A stretch of DNA of 64,000 nucleotides from Streptomyces sp. NBC_01451 (GTDB lineage: Bacteria > Actinomycetota > Actinomycetes > Streptomycetales > Streptomycetaceae), in contig NZ_CP109479.1 in NCBI RefSeq assembly GCF_036227485.1, positions 4,340,001 to 4,404,000 on the forward strand, in the 5' to 3' direction. The notes under the pieces were generated by a model that was not told where the DNA came from, did no database searches, and saw only the letters and a program-made list of their open reading frames with translations. The translations under genes were made by a program, and so were the position numbers. Shown here piece by piece: positions 29,762 to 38,870 of the stretch (its first letter is position 1; each line of letters starts with the position of its first letter).

Positions 29762-30748
29762 CTACTGGGCCTGCGACACCGTCTGTTGGCGGTAGTCCCT
29801 GGGCGACATCCCGTACGCGCCCCGGAACGCCCTGGTGAAGTCGGAGGGGCGCCGGTAGCCCCAGCGGGCGGCGATGACGTGGATCGGGGTGCCGCGCAGC
29901 GCGGGGTTCGCCAGGTCCCGGTGGGCGTTCTCCAGGCGTCGGCGGCGGATCCAGGCCGCGACGGGTTCGCCCCGCGTCTGCTCCTGGAAGATGCGGTGCA
30001 GGTAGCTGAGCGAGATGTTGTGGGCGGCGGCGATCACCGGCGGGGTCAGTTCGGGGTCGTGCAGGTTCTGCCTGATGTAGTCCTGGACGCGTTGCGCCAT
30101 GGCCCGGCCCCGGGTTTCCGGCGACAACGCGGCTTCCGTTTCCAGCAGTTGGGCGAACCAGGCCGACATGAGGTCGAGGACGACCGTGCCCAGGCGCGGC
30201 GCGTCGGACGGCTGGAGGGTGTGAGCCTGCCGGTCCAGTCCGACGACGAAGTCCGCCAGAAGCGCGCCGACCCCCTCCTCCCCCGGCAGCCGCCGGCCCA
30301 GCAACTCCCGTACCCGGTGCGGCGGCAGGGGAAGCAGTGCCTTGGGGAAGTCCACGGCCATGCCCATGACGAGACCGCCCTGCCGGTCGTCCGCCGATCT
30401 GACGTCGTACGGCTGCGAACTGTCGGCCAGGTGCAGGTCACGTGAGGTGAACGTGCTGGCCCGCCCGGCGTGGTCCAGCGCCAGCCCGCCGTCGATCAGC
30501 AGTGTCAGGTGATACAGCTCGGGGTCGGCCTGGCGCACCATTTTCGGGGTCCGGTGGTAACGCGTCGGCATGAACGACATCCGGCTCACGACCACCGGCC
30601 CCAGCTCCATCAGCCGCTGCTCCGCCCAGAAGTCGGCGGCGTGCTCGCTGACGAGTGCGCTGGAGCGCGTCCGGCCGACCAGTTCCTGCCAGTAGTCGAA
30701 CCTGTCGCCCGCAGGTACGTCGTCCGTACGGAACACCGTCCCGATCAT
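29762..30748 (-). CDS. AraC-family regulator (AraC-like ligand-binding N-domain)
   Basis: 328 residues. The N-terminal AraC-like binding domain (DRFDYWQELVGRT; the SRMSFMPTRYHRTP segment) occupies 1-190. The C-terminal double HTH (about 222-325) has NISLSYLHRIFQEQ and RWGYRRPSDFTRAFRGAYG followed by SPRDYR, the classic AraC signature. It is divergent from the pectin-degrading enzyme gene with a 152-bp gap, so control of that gene is plausible. The ligand is unknown. Confidence 0.92.
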   Translation of the reverse strand: MIGTVFRTDDVPAGDRFDYWQELVGRTRSSALVSEHAADFWAEQRLMELGPVVVSRMSFMPTRYHRTPKMVRQADPELYHLTLLIDGGLALDHAGRASTFTSRDLHLADSSQPYDVRSADDRQGGLVMGMAVDFPKALLPLPPHRVRELLGRRLPGEEGVGALLADFVVGLDRQAHTLQPSDAPRLGTVVLDLMSAWFAQLLETEAALSPETRGRAMAQRVQDYIRQNLHDPELTPPVIAAAHNISLSYLHRIFQEQTRGEPVAAWIRRRRLENAHRDLANPALRGTPIHVIAARWGYRRPSDFTRAFRGAYGMSPRDYRQQTVSQAQ

Positions 30749-30900: not shown

Positions 30901-33018
30901 GTGAGCGAAACCCGCAGCAAGTCCCGTAGCCGCAGCCGTCACCGCCGCCGCAAGACCGCACTGCTGGCCGGGGTCCCGCTTGCCCTCACCTCCGCCGGAG
31001 CCATGGCCTACGGCGGTGTCTTCGGCGTGTTCGGTGCGGACGCGCAGCCGAAGGCGTCCGCCGCCTCCTCCACCGCCTCCGCCCTCGCCGGTGTCACCGA
31101 CGTCGCCAACGGCTTCGCCTCCGTCAACGCCCTCGGTCAGAACGGGACTTACGGCGGCCGGGACGGCCAGACCGTCACCGTGAAGACGCTCGCCGACCTG
31201 GAGAAGTACGCGACCGCCGCCGAGCCGTACATCATCGTCGTCGCGGCCACCATCAACATGAACCCGGTCGGCAAGGAGATCAAGGTCGCCTCCGACAAGA
31301 CCATCATCGGGTCGGGAACCTCCGGGCAGATCGTCGGCGGCGGGTTCTTCCTCGGTACCGGGGTCCACAACGTCATCATCCGGAATCTCACCATCCGGGA
31401 CGCCTACCAGGGCATCTGGAACGACAAGGAACACGACTTCGACGCCGTCCAGATGGACGGCGCCCATCACGTGTGGATCGATCACAACGACCTGCGGCAG
31501 ATGGCCGACGGTCTGATCGACAGCCGCAAGGACACGACCTACCTGACCGTCTCCTGGAACAAACTGAGCCAGGACAACAAGGCCTTCGGCATCGGCTGGA
31601 CCGAGAACACCACCGCCGACATCACGATCCACCACAACTGGATACGCGAGACCGAGCAGCGCAACCCGTCCACCGACAACGTGGCCCACGCGCACCTCTA
31701 CAACAACTACCTGGAGGACGAGGCGGGGACCACCATCAAGTCCTCGTACGGCAATTACTCCCGCGGCAAGACCAACATGGTGCTGGAGAACTCCTACTTC
31801 CAGGGCATGACCAACCCCGTCGTCCGCGACGCCACCGCCACCCTCGTCCAGCGCGGCAACGTCTTCTCGGGGACGACGGGCAAGAACGAGAGCGGGGGGT
31901 CGGGCGCGGCCTGGGACCCGAAGACGTACTACGGCTACACCCTGGACAAGACGGCCGACGTGCCCGCGCTGCTCAAGTCCGGTGCGGGGCCGCGCAGTTC
32001 CGTGGCCAGGGCGACCGGCACCGCGACCACCACGGCCACCGGCACCACCACGGCCGCCGCCGCGACCACTCTCACCGTCGCCGCCGACGGCTCCGGCCAG
32101 TACCGGACAGTGCAGGCCGCCGTGAACGCCGTACCCGCGAACAACGCCTCCCGGGTGATCATCTCCGTCAAGCCGGGCACGTACCGCGAGCTGGTCAAGG
32201 TCCCGTCGAACAAGCCGCACGTCACCATCCAGGGCAGCGGCGGCAGCCGCAAGGACACCACGATCGTCTACAACAACGCTTCCGGTACGCCGAAGCCCGA
32301 CGGCTCCGGCACGTACGGCACCGGCGGCAGCGCCACCGTCGCCGTCGACGCGGACGACTTCCAGGCCCGCAACCTCACCATCTCCAACGACTTCGACGAG
32401 GCCACGCACCAGGACATCGCCAACCAGGCGGTCGCTCTGCGCACCTCCGCCGACAAGGTGTTCCTCGACAGCGTCATCATCAGCGGCGACCAGGACACCC
32501 TGCTGGTGGACACCGCGTCCAAGGACAAGCTGGGCCGCGTCTACATCACCAACTCCTACGTCGTCGGCAACACCGACTTCATCTTCGGCCGGGCCACCGC
32601 CGTGATCGACAAGTCGGTCATCACGCTGAAGAAGCGCTGGAACGGCACCTCGGCCGGTTACGTCACGGCCCCCAGCACCGCCGCGAACCGCAAGGGCATC
32701 CTGATCGCCAACTCCACGGTCAGCGGCGACGTCTCCGACCGCAGCTTCTACCTCGGCCGCAACTGGCACGCGGGCGGCGACGCGACCCTCGACCCGCAGA
32801 CCACGATCCGCAACACGGCCCTGAGCGCGGCGATCAGGACCACCCCCTGGTCCGACATGGGCGGCTTCTCCTGGAAGGAGGACCGCTTCGCCGAGTACAA
32901 GAACACCGGCGCGGGCTCGGGCGCCGCGAGCAGCGACCGCCCCCAGCTGACCGACGCCCAGGCCACCGCCCAGGAGGTCGCCGACTGGCTGGGCGACTGG
33001 ACACCGTCCGCCTCCTGA
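30901..33018 (+). CDS. Secreted pectate lyase (PL1) - pectinesterase (CE8) fusion
   Basis: 705 residues. A basic, Arg-rich signal sequence (RRRKTALLAGVPLALTSAGA) leads to a PL1 pectate lyase domain (about 60-350; VWIDHNDL, DGLIDS, and the substrate Arg region). A Thr/Ala linker (355-385) follows, then a CE8 pectin methylesterase domain (385-695) with GDQDTLL (Asp532), NTDFIFG (Asp559) and LGRNW (Arg620), the two catalytic Asp and the Arg. The protein would demethylate pectin and cleave the product, a logical pairing. GTG at 30901 has GGAAG upstream. Convergence with plant-associated lifestyles is likely. Confidence 0.92.
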   Translation: MSETRSKSRSRSRHRRRKTALLAGVPLALTSAGAMAYGGVFGVFGADAQPKASAASSTASALAGVTDVANGFASVNALGQNGTYGGRDGQTVTVKTLADLEKYATAAEPYIIVVAATINMNPVGKEIKVASDKTIIGSGTSGQIVGGGFFLGTGVHNVIIRNLTIRDAYQGIWNDKEHDFDAVQMDGAHHVWIDHNDLRQMADGLIDSRKDTTYLTVSWNKLSQDNKAFGIGWTENTTADITIHHNWIRETEQRNPSTDNVAHAHLYNNYLEDEAGTTIKSSYGNYSRGKTNMVLENSYFQGMTNPVVRDATATLVQRGNVFSGTTGKNESGGSGAAWDPKTYYGYTLDKTADVPALLKSGAGPRSSVARATGTATTTATGTTTAAAATTLTVAADGSGQYRTVQAAVNAVPANNASRVIISVKPGTYRELVKVPSNKPHVTIQGSGGSRKDTTIVYNNASGTPKPDGSGTYGTGGSATVAVDADDFQARNLTISNDFDEATHQDIANQAVALRTSADKVFLDSVIISGDQDTLLVDTASKDKLGRVYITNSYVVGNTDFIFGRATAVIDKSVITLKKRWNGTSAGYVTAPSTAANRKGILIANSTVSGDVSDRSFYLGRNWHAGGDATLDPQTTIRNTALSAAIRTTPWSDMGGFSWKEDRFAEYKNTGAGSGAASSDRPQLTDAQATAQEVADWLGDWTPSAS

Positions 33019-33072: not shown

Positions 33073-33804
33073 ATGGGCGGGGACATCGGTGGCCGTGACG
33101 GTGACAGTGACGGGATCGAGCGGGAGTACCGGAAGCGGCGAAAGTTGCCCCGGGGAGTGTTCGTCTACCCCGCCTGCACGATGTCGTACTGCCTGCTCCA
33201 ATTCAACCGGTCGTCCTCCGTGCCCGGTTGGGCGAAGGCCGTACTCCTGGCGGTCATCGTGACGGCCCTCGCGCGGTGGACGGTGTACCTGCGCCGCGGG
33301 CACACGCTGGTCGAAGCGCACGGGATCTCGGTACGCGGGGCCGTGATCGAACGCCGGTGGGCCTGGCACGACATCTACGACATCCGGACCCAGCCGGTCC
33401 CCAAGGGACCCTCCCACAGGCGCAAGTGGCTGGTCCACCTGTACGACACCGACGGCCGGCGGTTTCTCCTCCCGCACGTCGACGACTGGCAGTTGGACGA
33501 CCCACCGGCCGAGGTCGACGAGCTGCGAACCGTCGCCGCCCGGCACCGGGGCATGACCTGGGAGCCGCGCCCGGCGACCGAGGCGCGCATCCGGAGACGG
33601 GCCGCGCACCGCAAGGCCTGGGAACGGGCGGTCACCGGCGCGCTCGTCGTGCTCCTGTGCACCTTCCTGCTCTCGTTGGTGCTGGTGATCACGACGGACG
33701 ACGCACCGGCCCTCCTTCTGCTGCTGTGGATCCCCTTGGCCGCCTTCGCCCTCCTCTCGGCCTTCCTCCACTGGCGCTGCGCACGAACGGTAGCCAACGC
33801 ATAA
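33073..33804 (+). CDS. Membrane protein with bacterial PH-like domain
   Basis: 243 residues: two short hydrophobic segments near the N-terminus (about 32-67), then TLVEAHGISVRGAVIERRWAWHDIYDIRT, a pattern typical of bacterial PH (bPH) domains in small membrane proteins, and two transmembrane helices at the C-terminus (about 188-235). ATG at 33073 has GGAGGG upstream. It lies 54 bp after the pectinase fusion and 44 bp before the response regulator. Function is unknown. Confidence 0.7.
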   Translation: MGGDIGGRDGDSDGIEREYRKRRKLPRGVFVYPACTMSYCLLQFNRSSSVPGWAKAVLLAVIVTALARWTVYLRRGHTLVEAHGISVRGAVIERRWAWHDIYDIRTQPVPKGPSHRRKWLVHLYDTDGRRFLLPHVDDWQLDDPPAEVDELRTVAARHRGMTWEPRPATEARIRRRAAHRKAWERAVTGALVVLLCTFLLSLVLVITTDDAPALLLLLWIPLAAFALLSAFLHWRCARTVANA

Positions 33805-33848: not shown

Positions 33849-34571
33849 ATGACGCGGAAGATCCTGCTGGCCGACGACGACGCGGCCATACGTGAAGGGC
33901 TCGACCGGGTGCTCAGGTTCGAGGGGTACGAGACCGTGCTCGCCGGGGACGGCCGCGCGGCTCTCGCACTGGTCGCCGAACCGGACACCGCACCCGACCT
34001 CGTGCTCATGGACGTCACCATGCCCGGCCTCGACGGGCTCGCCGCGACCCGGCGGCTGCGGGCCTCGGGGTGCACCGTCCCGATCCTGATGATCACCGGG
34101 CGGGCCGCTGTCGGGGACCGGATCGTCGCGCTCGACAACGGCGCCGACGACTACCTGATGAAGCCCTTCGCCACCGAGGAACTCCTCGCGCGCGTAAGGG
34201 CGTTACTGCGCCGCAGCCCGCGTCGCGAACCCCGGCCGCCCTCGCGGCTCGCGGGCATCAGCTTCCAGGACGTCCTCCTGGACCCGCGGACCCGTACCGT
34301 CACCCGTGCCGACCGCCGACTCGACCTCACCAAGACCGAGTTCAACCTTCTCGAATACCTGCTGCGCCGGCCCGACAGGGTCCTGGGCCGGGTCCAGATC
34401 CTCAAGGACGTCTGGGGCTTCGACTTCGAGCCCACCTCCAACACCCTTGATGTGTACGTCATGTACCTGCGCCGGAAAATGGAGAGCCGGGGCGAACCCC
34501 GGCTCATCCACACCGTGCGCGGGATGGGTTACACCCTCAGGGCCAGCGTCAGCGTCTCCTCCCGCCGATAG
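33849..34571 (+). CDS. Orphan OmpR-family response regulator
   Basis: 240 residues. The receiver is intact: DDD9-11, Asp55 (LVLMDVTMPGLDG), Thr/Ser position in MITGRA and Lys in DYLMKPF. The winged helix has KTEFNLLEYLLRRP and [14 protein letters not shown]. It resembles the regulator at 26964 in the effector domain ([19 protein letters not shown]). No kinase gene is adjacent; the 3' end overlaps the convergent ABC exporter by 43 bp. ATG at 33849. It could respond to the nearby kinase at 27698 or to a distant one. Confidence 0.88.
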   Translation: MTRKILLADDDAAIREGLDRVLRFEGYETVLAGDGRAALALVAEPDTAPDLVLMDVTMPGLDGLAATRRLRASGCTVPILMITGRAAVGDRIVALDNGADDYLMKPFATEELLARVRALLRRSPRREPRPPSRLAGISFQDVLLDPRTRTVTRADRRLDLTKTEFNLLEYLLRRPDRVLGRVQILKDVWGFDFEPTSNTLDVYVMYLRRKMESRGEPRLIHTVRGMGYTLRASVSVSSRR

Positions 34572-36349
34572 CCGTGGTCCGGCACCAGTGGCGCTGAGGC
34601 TGAGGGCGACAGTGGCAGGGGGGCCGCGAGCCTCGCGTACACCCCGCCCCGCGCGATCAGTTCGTCGTGCGTGCCCGTCTCGGCGAGGCGGCCCTCGTCG
34701 ACGACCAGGATGCGGTCCGCGTCCGGGGCGAGACTCAGATCGTGGGTGATCATGATGGTCGTACGGCCTGCCATCAGGCGGCGCAGCGCCGGGACGATCC
34801 GGCGGGCGGCGATCGAGTCCAGGCCGGCCGTCGGCTCGTCGAGGACCAGTACCGGGGCCCGGCGCAGCATGGCCCGGGCGATGGCGATCCGCTGCAACTG
34901 GCCGCCGGAGAGCGTGGCCGTGCCGGGGGCGATCCGCGTGCCGTACCCCTCCGGGAGCGCGGTGACGAAGTCGTGCGCGTCGGCAGCCCGGGCCGCGGCC
35001 TCGATGTCCGCGTCGCTCGCGCCGGGGCGCCCGCACTCGATGTTCTCGCGGATCGAACCGTGCAGGATCAGCGTCTCCTGCGGGAGCAGCGCCACGTTCT
35101 CGCGCAGGAAGGTGAGCGGTACGTCGGTCAGCGGGACGCCGTCCAGGCAGATCACGCCGGCTGAGGGGTCGTAGAAGCGGGTGAGGAGTTTCGACAGGGT
35201 GGACTTTCCGGCGCCGCTGGCTCCGGTGATGAGGACCAGTTCGCCGGGGGCGGCGGTGAAGGTCACCTCGCGCAGCGACGGCCGCCGGCCGGTGTCCTCG
35301 CCCGGGTAGGTGAAGGAGGCGCCGTGGACGCTGACCCAGCCGCGCACGGGCCACTGGGCCACCGGCTCGGCCGGGTCGGCGACGGCGGGCTCGGCGTCCA
35401 GCAGTTCGCCGAGGCGTTCCGCGCCCGCGGTCGCCGCCGTCAGGGTCAGCCCGAGCTGGCCGAGGCTGCGGATCGGCGGGTAGAGGTAGCCGACGAAGGC
35501 CGCGAAGGCGAGAAGGGCGCCCAGTGACATCCGGCCGGCGGAGATCTCCCAGACGCCGAGTCCGATCACCGTGAGGACGCACAGCGTCTCGACGACCTCG
35601 ACGAACTGTTCGTACATCTCGCTCAGCCGCGCCCCGCGCACACTCGCCCGCATCCAGGCGCGGGCCTCCCGGTCGAGGCGCTTCTCCTCGTCTCGGCGGC
35701 GGTTGTAGGCCTGGGTGAGGACGATGTTGCCGAGGGACTCCTCCACCACCGAGGTGATCGCGCCGTCGGCGACGCGCTCGTCCTGGCTCGCCGTCCTGAT
35801 GCGGCCGGCGAAGCGGCGGGCGGCGAGGAGGAAGAGGGGGGCCAGGAAGAAGGTGACGAGGGCCAGGTCCCAGCGCAGCCAGAGGGCGGCGGCGGAGTAG
35901 AAGAGGGCCGAGAAGGCGGCGGAGACCGTACCGACGACACCGGACACGACCATCTGTTCGATGGCTTCGACGTCTCCCGTCAGACGCTCCACCAGGTCGC
36001 CCTGGCGGTGCTTCTGGAAGAAGTCGGGCGGCAGATCCTGGACGTGCCGGAAGACGCCCGCCCGCAGCCGCAGCACGAATCTCTCGGCGGTCCAGGTGGC
36101 GAGCGAGTTTCCGGCGTAGCCGACGAGCGCGCCGAGCACGGCGACGGCCAGCCAGGCGCCGGCCGGGCCCCAGAAGGCGGCGAGGGAACCCGCCTCAAGG
36201 GCGTTGTCCGTCAGCTCCGCGAACAGCAGGATCGCGGCGGTCTCGGCCAGCGCGGACACCACCACGCACGCGACGATCGCCACCAGCCATTTACGGTCGC
36301 CGCGCGTCAGCGGCCAGAACCGGCGGAACGCCTCCCGCACTTCTCTCAT
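34529..36349 (-). CDS. ABC exporter half-transporter next to twin basic peptides
   Basis: 606 residues: six transmembrane helices (about 15-300) and an ATPase domain (350-575) with Walker A ITGASGAGKST, Q-loop LLPQET, signature LSGGQLQRIAIARA, Walker B VLVLDEPT and switch His in ITHDLS. It should work as a homodimer exporting a substrate. There is no N-terminal C39 peptidase domain. ATG at 36349 has AAGGGAG 6 bases upstream. It lies 90 bp downstream of two lysine-rich peptide genes, separated by a 16-bp hairpin, so those peptides are the best candidate cargo (inference). Confidence 0.9.
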   Translation of the reverse strand: MREVREAFRRFWPLTRGDRKWLVAIVACVVVSALAETAAILLFAELTDNALEAGSLAAFWGPAGAWLAVAVLGALVGYAGNSLATWTAERFVLRLRAGVFRHVQDLPPDFFQKHRQGDLVERLTGDVEAIEQMVVSGVVGTVSAAFSALFYSAAALWLRWDLALVTFFLAPLFLLAARRFAGRIRTASQDERVADGAITSVVEESLGNIVLTQAYNRRRDEEKRLDREARAWMRASVRGARLSEMYEQFVEVVETLCVLTVIGLGVWEISAGRMSLGALLAFAAFVGYLYPPIRSLGQLGLTLTAATAGAERLGELLDAEPAVADPAEPVAQWPVRGWVSVHGASFTYPGEDTGRRPSLREVTFTAAPGELVLITGASGAGKSTLSKLLTRFYDPSAGVICLDGVPLTDVPLTFLRENVALLPQETLILHGSIRENIECGRPGASDADIEAAARAADAHDFVTALPEGYGTRIAPGTATLSGGQLQRIAIARAMLRRAPVLVLDEPTAGLDSIAARRIVPALRRLMAGRTTIMITHDLSLAPDADRILVVDEGRLAETGTHDELIARGGVYARLAAPLPLSPSASAPLVPDHGYRREETLTLALRV

Positions 36350-36380
36350 GGTCAACTCCCTTTTCCTGCCCGGCATGCCT

Positions 36381-36429
36381 GAGGCGGGGCCACCGGGACC
36401 GTGTGCGCGTCCTCCGGTGGCCCCGCCTC
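36381..36429 (-). terminator. Strong intercistronic hairpin between peptide genes and exporter
   Basis: GAGGCGGGGCCACCGG (36381-36396) is perfectly complementary to CCGGTGGCCCCGCCTC (36414-36429), a 16-bp stem. It lies 10 bp after the first peptide's stop and 32 bp before the exporter start. A leaky terminator or stabilising stem would keep exporter expression below peptide expression. Confidence 0.75.
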
Positions 36430-36439
36430 ATGTCAGGTC

Positions 36440-36568
36440 TCAGCGCTGGTGCCCGACCGGACGACGCTGCGCCTTCTGGGGCGCCGGCTTCTTCGGAGCC
36501 TTCTTCTTCGGGGCCGGAGCGGCGGGCTTGGCGGCCTTCTTGACGGGGACAATCTTGTGGAAGCTCAT
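36440..36568 (-). CDS. 42-aa Lys/Pro/Ala-rich basic peptide (twin A)
   Basis: The frame starts MSFHKIVPVKKAAKP and ends RRPVGHQR. It is highly basic, Pro/Ala/Lys-rich and has no Cys, Ser-rich core or Gly-Gly leader site. GGGAGGA stands 8 bases before the ATG at 36568. The N-terminal MSF(H/K)KI(V/A)PVKKA and C-terminal RRPV(G/A)H are shared with the neighbouring peptide, while the middle differs in length. It could be an exported leaderless bacteriocin-like peptide, a cationic surface or cell-wall-binding peptide, or a nucleic-acid-binding peptide. No family is recognised. Confidence 0.7.
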   Translation of the reverse strand: MSFHKIVPVKKAAKPAAPAPKKKAPKKPAPQKAQRRPVGHQR

Positions 36569-36671
36569 AGGAATTTCCTCCCGGGTTGTGAATCGGCTGT
36601 TCGTGGATTTCTTTCAGCTGTGACCGCAGCTGCGGGTGCGACTGCGACTGCGACTGGAGAAGTGTTCTGCG

Positions 36672-36788
36672 TCAGTCCTTATGGGCGACCGGGCGACGCT
36701 TGGGAGTGACCTTCTTCGGCGCGGGCTTGTGGGGCGCCGGGACGGCCTTGCGGGCCTTCTTGACCGGGGCGATCTTCTTGAAGCTCAT
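36672..36788 (-). CDS. 38-aa Lys/Pro/Ala-rich basic peptide (twin B)
   Basis: The frame starts MSFKKIAPVKKARKA and ends RRPVAHKD. AAAGGAG stands 7 bases before the ATG at 36788. It is the promoter-proximal gene of the peptide-peptide-exporter set; the 103-bp gap to twin A and the upstream sequence have lower GC than the surroundings. The conserved ends and divergent middle argue for selection at both termini, and a two-peptide product is possible. Confidence 0.7.
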   Translation of the reverse strand: MSFKKIAPVKKARKAVPAPHKPAPKKVTPKRRPVAHKD

Positions 36789-36971
36789 GCTGTTCTCCTT
36801 TGTTTTCCGTGTCGTCCGCCGTTCGCTTTCGACATGGAAAACACTACGGGACGCGGGAAGTGGAAAAAGCCAATTCCGCTTAGACCTCGATTAATTGCAG
36901 CTGAGACCGATTTTCAGGACACCCAGGGAACCGATCCGCATTTCACACAGGACTTATTACGGGCATTACAA

Positions 36972-37000
36972 AGGGCCCAAGGCGAAATGCCTTGGGCCCT
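36972..37000. terminator. Terminator hairpin after the 5'-nucleotidase gene
   Basis: AGGGCCCAAGGC (36972-36983) pairs perfectly with GCCTTGGGCCCT (36989-37000) around a GAAAT loop. It lies 47 bp past the nucleotidase stop on the minus strand and insulates the peptide operon. Confidence 0.85.
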
Positions 37001-37046
37001 CTGCGACGGAACCGCTACTACTAGTGGTGCTGGTGCTGTGCTGGTG

Positions 37047-38870
37047 CTACTTCACGATCGTGATCCGGTTCGCCGCCGGAGGCGCGATCGGCGTCGTGGC
37101 CGTGGAGTTGGCGGTCAGGTAGTCCGCCAGTGCCGCGAGGTCGTCCGTGCCGACCAGGTCGTTCGTGCCCTGGCCCAGCGTCGTGAAGCCGTCGCCGCCG
37201 CCCGCGAGGAAGCTGTTCGTCGCGACGCGGTAGGTGGCGGCCGGGTCGATCGCCGCACCGTTCAGCCTGACCGAGGCGGCGACGAGGCGTTCCGCGCCCG
37301 CCTTCGTCAGGTCAAGGGTGTAGGTGAGCCCCGACGACACCTGGAGCACCTTCGGGGAGGCCGCGTTCGTGCCGCTCACCTGCTCCTGGAGTACGGAGAT
37401 CAGCTGCGCGCCGGTGAAGTCCTGCAGGTTCACCGTGTTGGAGAACGGCTGGACCGTGAAGCCCTCGGCGTAGGTGACGACACCGTCGCCCTCGGCGCCC
37501 TTCGCCGCGTAGGTGAGCCCCGCGCGGATACCGCCCGGGTTCATCAGCGCGAGGTCGGTCTCCGGGTCGAGCTTCTTGCCGTACGCCAGTTGCGCGTCGG
37601 CGATGAGGTCGCCCATCGGGGACTCGGTGCCGGTGTTGTTGATGTCGCCGGAGATGTAGCCGATCGCGCGGTTGCCGATGGGCGCCGCGAGGGTGTTCCA
37701 CCGGGCGATCAGGTCGGTCATGTCCGTGGCCTTGGCGACGGTCCGGGTGACCACGTGGTTCGCGGAGGAGACGGCGGTACGGGCGATGTCACCCGTCCAG
37801 CGGTCGTACGTCAGCGTGGTGTCCGTGTACAGGCGGCCGAAGGACGCGGCCGAGGTGACCGTGCGCGGCTTGCCCGACGGGTCGGGGATCGTGCAGGCGT
37901 ACGCGGCGTGGGTGTGGCCGGTGACCAGCGCGTCGACCTTCGGGGTGACGTTCTTCGCGATGTCGACGATCGGACCGGAGATGCCGGAGCCGGCGCCCGC
38001 CGCGTCGCAGTCGTAGTTGTACGAGCCCGAGGCCGGGAGACCGCCCTCGTGGATCAGCGCGACGACCGACTTGACGCCCTGCTTCTCCAGCTCCTTGGCG
38101 TACTTGTTGATCGTCTCGACCTCGTCCTTGAACTTGAGGCCCTTCACACCGTCGGCGGAGACGACACCCGGGGTGTCCTCAAGGGTCACGCCGATGAAGC
38201 CGATCTTGACGCCGTTCTTCTTCCACACCCAGTAGGGCTTGAGGATCGGCTTCCTGGTCTTCTCGTCGAGCACGTTCGCCGCGAGGTAGGGGAAGTCCGC
38301 GCCCTTGAACTTCTTACCCTTGACGTAGCAGCCGTCCGTCGGGTGGCAGCCGCCGTTCTGGAGGCGGGCCAGTTCCTTGGCGCCCTCGTCGAACTCGTGG
38401 TTGCCGACGGAGGTGACGTCGAGGTCGAGGCCGTTGAGCGCCTCGATGGTGGGCTCGTCGTGGAAGAGACCCGAGATCAGCGGGGAGGCGCCGACCATGT
38501 CGCCGCCGGCCGCCGTGATCGAGTACGGGTTGTCCCCGCGCGCCTCGCGCAGGTGCGTGGCGAGGTACTCGACACCGCCCGCGTCGATCGTCTTCGTCGT
38601 GCCGTCGGCCTGGAGTTCGGTGACCCGGCCGGAGGAGCCGGACGGCGGCTCCAGGTTGCCGTGCAGGTCGTTGAAGGACAGCAGCTGCACGTCCTGGTAG
38701 CGACTCGGCTTGCTGTGCCCCTGACCGGCGGGCTTGTACGAGCTGTCCCCGGCACTGGCCGGAAGAGCGGCGGCGGCGAGAGCGCCGACCGTGGCGATAC
38801 CGGCTACGCCGGCGAGCAGCACGCGCGTACGGCGTCTGCGGCGGTGGTACGGCTGGGGTGTGGCTGGCAT
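37047..38870 (-). CDS. Secreted 5'-nucleotidase/2',3'-cyclic phosphodiesterase (UshA family)
   Basis: 607 residues. The signal peptide has an RRRRRTRVLLAG Arg stretch and cleavage near ALPASAG (about residue 41). The N-terminal metallophosphoesterase domain has SFNDLHGN, GGDMVG, VGNHEFD and GHTHAAY; the C-terminal substrate domain has the nucleotide-stacking region LAGGGDGF. It hydrolyses extracellular nucleotides to release phosphate. ATG at 38870 with AGGGGGG just upstream. No clear PHO box was found upstream, although the orthologue is, as I recall, part of the phosphate-starvation secretome. Confidence 0.92.
   Translation of the reverse strand: MPATPQPYHRRRRRTRVLLAGVAGIATVGALAAAALPASAGDSSYKPAGQGHSKPSRYQDVQLLSFNDLHGNLEPPSGSSGRVTELQADGTTKTIDAGGVEYLATHLREARGDNPYSITAAGGDMVGASPLISGLFHDEPTIEALNGLDLDVTSVGNHEFDEGAKELARLQNGGCHPTDGCYVKGKKFKGADFPYLAANVLDEKTRKPILKPYWVWKKNGVKIGFIGVTLEDTPGVVSADGVKGLKFKDEVETINKYAKELEKQGVKSVVALIHEGGLPASGSYNYDCDAAGAGSGISGPIVDIAKNVTPKVDALVTGHTHAAYACTIPDPSGKPRTVTSAASFGRLYTDTTLTYDRWTGDIARTAVSSANHVVTRTVAKATDMTDLIARWNTLAAPIGNRAIGYISGDINNTGTESPMGDLIADAQLAYGKKLDPETDLALMNPGGIRAGLTYAAKGAEGDGVVTYAEGFTVQPFSNTVNLQDFTGAQLISVLQEQVSGTNAASPKVLQVSSGLTYTLDLTKAGAERLVAASVRLNGAAIDPAATYRVATNSFLAGGGDGFTTLGQGTNDLVGTDDLAALADYLTANSTATTPIAPPAANRITIVK

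Follow-up and report, generated by a model that had tools for sequence, protein, structure and literature searches.

A family of paired peptide and exporter genes hints at an undescribed route by which bacteria may secrete disordered peptides

Closest described systems and the peptide–exporter locus

In the aureocin A70 system, a dedicated ABC exporter is encoded beside tandem peptide genes, and RiPP precursors combine a leader/core layout, in which a short constant N-terminus is followed by a variable body, with a hairpin before the next gene. Aureocin A70 and garvicin KS are described as several cationic, leaderless and unmodified peptides of 30–34 aa, leaderless multi-peptide bacteriocins have positive hydropathy values of 0.40 to 0.71 (PMC6131525), and the two-peptide leaderless bacteriocin enterocin DD14 depends on PH-domain proteins for its export (PMC8657885).

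To these systems we compare a locus in a 64,000-nt stretch (the window) of a 10.27-Mb, single-contig genome. On the minus strand, the order of transcription is a 5′-nucleotidase-like gene, two peptide genes (P1 and P2), an inverted repeat and an exporter:

37047–38870, minus strand: 5′-nucleotidase-like gene, before P1 in transcription order
36820–36889, minus strand: promoter-like or 5′-leader block upstream of P1, TAGTGTTTTCCATGTCGAAAGCGAACG, conserved in KPA-type loci
36672–36788, minus strand: P1, a 38-aa Lys/Pro/Ala peptide, MSFKKIAPVKK...RRPVAHKD (from sequence and homologues)
36440–36568, minus strand: P2, a 42-aa paralogue of P1, MSFHKIVPVKK...RRPVGHQR (from sequence and homologues)
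36380–36430, minus strand: hairpin (inverted repeat) with a 17-bp stem, in the gap between the last peptide gene and the exporter (from sequence)
34529–36349, minus strand: MsbA-like half-size ABC exporter of 606 aa without a peptidase domain (from Pfam)

A preliminary description of this DNA had reported two tandem small genes with good ribosome sites ahead of a half-size, peptidase-free exporter, and the details bear this out. Shine–Dalgarno sequences precede P1 (AAGGAG) and P2 (GGAGG), and P1 has the same residue as P2 at 26 of its 38 positions. The P1/P2 alignment scores 114; shuffling P2 1000 times gave 28.5 ± 9.5 and never more than 60, too little for the likeness to come from composition alone. 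The peptides carry net charges of +12 and +13, respectively. The exporter has the two Pfam domains (ABC_membrane and ABC_tran), the Walker and signature motifs and the half size of an MsbA-type half exporter, with no peptidase among its Pfam matches. New to the picture is the gap of 90 nt that separates the stop codon of P2 from the ATG of the exporter and spans the inverted repeat; a search of 36300–37100 against Rfam gave no match.

The layout, in which small leaderless peptides adjoin an ABC exporter, is reminiscent of leaderless bacteriocins such as aureocin A70 and garvicin KS. Unlike those bacteriocins, the peptides of the wider family described below have negative hydropathy in 134 of 134 cases (median −1.37), some are net acidic, and their bodies contain almost no Ile, Leu, Val or Met; membership among the leaderless bacteriocins thus fails on the peptide side, given the opposite sign of hydropathy and the acidic members. 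As a possible parallel to enterocin DD14, a gene for a bacterial PH-domain protein (bPH_6, 33073–33804) lies near the exporter, though on the opposite strand, and relatives occur in 10 of 37 fetched KPA-type loci. The short constant N-terminus, the variable body and the hairpin ahead of the next gene recall RiPP precursors. In contrast to RiPP loci, when ORFs of at least 90 aa, few of them annotated, were clustered across 71 neighbourhoods of the genus, no cluster except that of the exporter was present in all subgroups and could supply a modifying enzyme or leader protease, and none of the RiPP models reached cut-off for the peptides tested. The locus likewise differs from double-glycine systems, as the preliminary description had held, since the peptides have no GG leader and a Pfam scan found no C39 peptidase domain in the exporter. 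The observation that P1 and P2 contain no Cys also stands, yet 22 of 134 relatives do contain it. Finally, the exporter belongs to the same family as MsbA/ABCB-type exporters but scores below the curated cut-off of each of the best 25 of 203 matched families.

Linkage of peptides and exporters across genomes

We searched whole genomes for homologues of the peptides with a two-row profile (E ≤ 1e-3). Peptides of the P1/P2 type were found in at least 38 of 295 genomes of the genus (at least 36 of 288 of good quality), a lower bound because 25 candidates per genome were scored. Across the other 37 peptide loci, which were fetched for comparison, there are one to five copies per locus, among them several complete tandem copies with their own ribosome sites. 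The exporter directly follows the peptides in 35 of these 37 loci and, with the window, in 36 of 38 genomes; homologues lying mostly apart from an exporter, which would have spoken against the preliminary description's dedicated exporter, are thus not what is seen. Together with the nearly complete linkage in the reverse direction shown below, this adjacency strongly supports that reading. It persists where the other neighbours differ (loci L066 and L072–L075). Two loci (L053 and L063) have peptides without an adjoining exporter, and both genomes carry another exporter of the family elsewhere; in L041 the exporter reads as two pieces.

Among 72 peptides of the window type, M1, S2, F3 and P8 are invariant, although the selecting pattern itself demands these four residues; K5 is present in 72, and R5 in one L063 peptide. 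Uncorrected pN/pS is 0.38 over codons 2–11 and 0.12 over the C-terminal RPV (last copies, 44 loci); for whole peptides, compared in 121 pairs of equal length and more than 70% identity, it is 0.43. These values show purifying selection on both ends and point to proteins that are translated and selected. P1, P2 and the relatives tested (seven with Pfam, eight with NCBIfam) all stayed below the cut-off of every Pfam and NCBIfam model; below the NCBIfam cut-off, a His-rich body matched HxsA4 (19.2 of 55 bits) and SclA, and a poly-Arg body matched SCO2400. Because these are genes of 32–69 aa for which no model reaches cut-off in the members tested, ordinary annotation may miss them. A phage search with P2 and a plasmid search with the exporter each gave no match, and a literature search covering a minority of subscription journals and no preprints turned up nothing about the peptide–exporter unit among the matches listed.

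Searching from the exporter side, we found the exporter in at least 78 of 295 genomes of the genus (E ≤ 1e-150), about a quarter, in at least 60 of 245 genomes of the order (E ≤ 1e-120), and in at least 15 of 346 genomes of the phylum, spanning 10 genera; these counts are lower bounds from three to five scored candidates per genome, and the three genome sets overlap. Many, not all, of the exporter loci were fetched and pooled with the peptide loci, giving 145 unique ABC loci; 135 of these could be used, with at least 700 nt upstream and the exporter 5′ end present. The ten excluded loci include L053 and L063 (no family exporter there), L041, L069 and L174 (all with peptides), and contig ends. 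Each usable locus was scanned automatically, within 900 nt upstream of the exporter, for ORFs of 33–75 aa with an ATG start, a Shine–Dalgarno sequence, and either the N-terminal motif or low entropy.

Such a candidate was present in 131 of 135 loci. Requiring both the motif and entropy ≤ 3.4 retained 115 of 135 loci and 0 of 74 generic ABC exporters, while the motif alone gave 122 of 135 versus 1 of 74, and low entropy alone 124 of 135 versus 4 of 74. The comparison favours the family, since the motif was written after its members had been seen, and the generic exporters (28–39% identity, found via Walker-motif patterns) are imperfect controls, coming from many phyla with few high-GC actinobacteria. 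A second and closer comparison used 404 other genes of the same loci: an upstream low-entropy ORF (≤ 3.3) was found for 20 of them and the motif in addition for two, compared with 118 of 140 and 107 of 140 exporters in the same test (duplicates still included). Read by eye, a step applied to the four misses of the scan and not to the controls, L109, L167 and L202 have an intact peptide with a weak site or a GTG start, and L127 retains only a C-terminal peptide remnant and the hairpin, joined to or behind another ORF, through either recombination or an assembly fault. The peptides and their exporters form an unnamed family, which is real, conserved, and both wider and stranger than the preliminary description had it.

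Peptide bodies and the exporter clade

By rules of our own making, the peptides at the 135 loci fall into Lys/Pro/Ala (KPA, the window type; 53), PPKP (18), Gly/Arg/Tyr (16), His/Asp-rich (24), polyarginine (6), other Arg-rich (8) and other (9) types, with one locus lacking a peptide; at L205 the wrong ORF entered the upstream scan and the type and charge counts, and the correct peptide there is also Arg-rich. Lengths run from 32 to 69 aa. Most peptides share a short N-terminus, M-S/A-x-F...P, with F, V, I or L at position 3 or 4 in 131 of 134 and Pro at positions 7–11 in 120 of 134. Behind it, the bodies of the 134 peptides consist to 81% of K, R, H, P, A, G and D and are almost free of I, L, V, M and E. 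Arg-rich bodies predominate at the loci that belong to other classes of the phylum, and the six polyarginine peptides have 9–14 unbroken Arg. One peptide, the Gly-Asn-Trp-rich ORF of L166, lacks the motif and is a doubtful member.

Median net charge is 13 in the KPA type, 16 in the polyarginine type and 0 in the His/Asp type, the extremes being +18 and −10, and glycine-rich members go as low as +1. Strong positive charge is thus not found family-wide, the His/Asp type having a median of 0 and a minimum of −10. The description of P1 and P2 as a cationic peptide pair proves too narrow: copies number one to five, and within a single exporter clade the bodies range from +18 to −10, so charge is not the defining trait. 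Nor does a cationic antimicrobial fit the whole family, some of whose bodies carry a net negative charge.

In a tree of 96 family and 35 generic exporters, the family falls on one branch with support of 100, so that, unlike MsbA/ABCB-type exporters, its members form a clade of their own, with diagnostic residues that include E131 and E254. Peptide type follows the exporter tree, on which it changes 16 times, versus 69.3 times for shuffled labels; the tree was made by a quick method, with long branches among the controls and with the His/Asp and Arg types represented by four and three rows, and clustering of the Arg group does not exceed that of shuffled labels. Single genomes can hold several units of differing type (L062 and L189 in G084; L057 and L118 in G181). 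The window's own genome has a second unit (L106, G000:C1:1182000-1196000), whose exporter is 68% identical and whose own upstream peptide, MSFRVVAPLTPRRNANTDPNANRFPQPP..., is of another type.

We also asked whether the charge of the exporter is related to that of the peptide, which would be a possible sign of export. The charge of the transmembrane domain declines with increasing peptide charge (Spearman −0.47, n=135), versus −0.12 for the ATPase domain; with phylogenetic contrasts the relation falls to r=−0.13 (p=0.12; rank p=0.03). A charge matching of pore and cargo, clear in the raw data and weak after phylogenetic correction, is not established.

Gene neighbours differ between the subgroups. 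KPA and its nearest kin have syntenic neighbours in common, PPKP has a separate set, and clusters c19, c25, c31 and c35 each join three to five loci from two or three subgroups; neither a protease nor an immunity gene is implied by the neighbours that are shared. Outside the genus, clustering places a Ser/Thr kinase gene immediately behind the exporter in 8 of 12 loci (L309, L311, L312, L315, L316, L317, L318 and L320), starting at or within a few bases of the exporter's stop codon, and Pkinase was confirmed in the two kinases scanned; the kinase is possibly a third component. A sensor kinase and a response regulator lie upstream in 5 of these 12 loci, with one sensor confirmed. Cluster c9, DMT/EamA-like from its sequence, stands behind the exporter in 13 loci, mostly of the PPK type, and seems to be a chromosomal neighbour and not a part of the unit. 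Binding of polyphosphate, considered on account of a ppk-like gene (labelled from its sequence) about 6 kb away, was dropped for lack of constancy.

A candidate export unit and its alternatives

We favour, at a probability of roughly 0.6, a dedicated export unit in which unmodified, disordered peptides are the cargo of the adjoining exporter and the N-terminus serves as their address. P1 and P2 would be made in excess over the exporter; the MsbA-like exporter, acting as a homodimer, would take up the peptides via their N-terminus (M-S/A-x-F-x-x-h-x-P) and then expel them unmodified and disordered; and the low-complexity body would work outside the cell, either forming a coat that binds wall, polyanions or metal or serving as an antagonist. 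The excess of peptide is suggested because a strong hairpin would end or trim most transcripts after the peptide genes.

The layout of the stems is in accordance with such an excess. Folding energies of the gap after the last peptide have a median of −44.9 kcal/mol, compared to −33.5 kcal/mol when shuffled (10 single-base shuffles each), and the stem is stronger than shuffled (z below −2) in 95 of 130 loci and not clearly so in the remaining 35. At loci with tandem copies, the best stem has a median of −49.6 kcal/mol after the last copy (n=24) versus −16.0 kcal/mol between copies (n=34), the gaps measuring 110 and 81 nt, respectively. Judging from sequence, the window's hairpin at 36380–36430 is probably a partial terminator or an mRNA 3′ end, and the stem layout would fit many peptide and few exporter transcripts, as for cargo and carrier.

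If the peptides are exported, roughly one in four of the genus genomes sampled carries an undescribed secretion unit that also extends to other classes of the phylum, and the cargo of this unit consists of polymers (poly-Arg, PK, RG and HGD) that are usually designed by hand in biotechnology. The combination of one exporter clade, one short N-terminus and many bodies makes both the export signal and an outside role of low-complexity sequence directly testable. More tentatively, and at somewhat below even odds, the clade could constitute a private secretion route for disordered peptides across several classes of the phylum (inferred to be Actinomycetota), in which a constant N-terminal address of ∼10 residues precedes a freely exchangeable low-complexity body (Lys-Pro, PPKP, RG/GY, His-Asp-Gly or poly-Arg) that co-evolves with the exporter. 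It would then act as a general means of depositing designer-like disordered polymers on the cell or outside it, possibly to coat the envelope, to bind polyanions or metals, or for antagonism; in some lineages a Ser/Thr kinase would control it. The kinase behind the exporter outside the genus is left unexplained by the export reading itself.

The same linkage could arise if the peptides were accessory subunits or plugs that bind or regulate an exporter whose true substrate is a lipid, a drug or a wall precursor. Nearly one-to-one linkage and a common N-terminus, with a body that seems hardly to matter, are what such a role predicts, and the best 60 solved sequences listed for the exporter consist for the most part of exporters of drugs, lipids and hormones and include a single peptide exporter, that of a-factor. 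We consider this unlikely: arrays of up to five copies and, in the window type, conserved C-termini are odd for a subunit, and the stem after the last copy suggests more peptide than exporter.

Quite unlikely, in turn, are intracellular proteins that bind nucleic acid or polyphosphate, in the manner of histones or protamines, with the exporter as a co-regulated neighbour. The preliminary description had named a histone-like role as its alternative, and Lys/Pro/Ala and polyarginine bodies do resemble histone tails and protamines; the Ser/Thr kinase gene outside the genus would also suit protamine-like phosphorylation. This role is weakened by the exporter, which alone is constant across the subgroups, and by the acidic His/Asp and glycine-rich members.

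Regulatory leader ORFs, in which stalling on PPP, poly-Arg or poly-Lys would control read-through of the hairpin into the exporter, are very unlikely despite stall-prone runs in the bodies and the strong stem before the exporter, given several complete tandem copies with their own ribosome sites, conservation of both ends at the protein level, and no overall excess of pairing between the hairpin arm and upstream coding sequence, although in this coarse antiterminator test (median z −0.44) z does fall below −2 in 6 of 47 loci.

Upstream of the first KPA peptide lies the conserved block TAG/ATGTTTTCCATGTCGAAAGCGAACG (36820–36889 in the window, and its relatives), with the promoter-like block GTTTTCCA present in 37 of 47 KPA-type loci and in 0 of 73 loci of four other groups. 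A leaderless mini-ORF (MSKAN...) could begin at the ATG that directly follows a possible −10 box, but its frame is seemingly not kept in the few sequences compared. At the other end of the locus, a gene for an OmpR/PhoB-type response regulator (33849–34571) is convergent with the exporter and overlaps its 3′ end. Farther along, a 705-aa protein (30901–33018) matches both pectate lyase and pectinesterase families and is adjoined by an AraC-type regulator (29762–30748).
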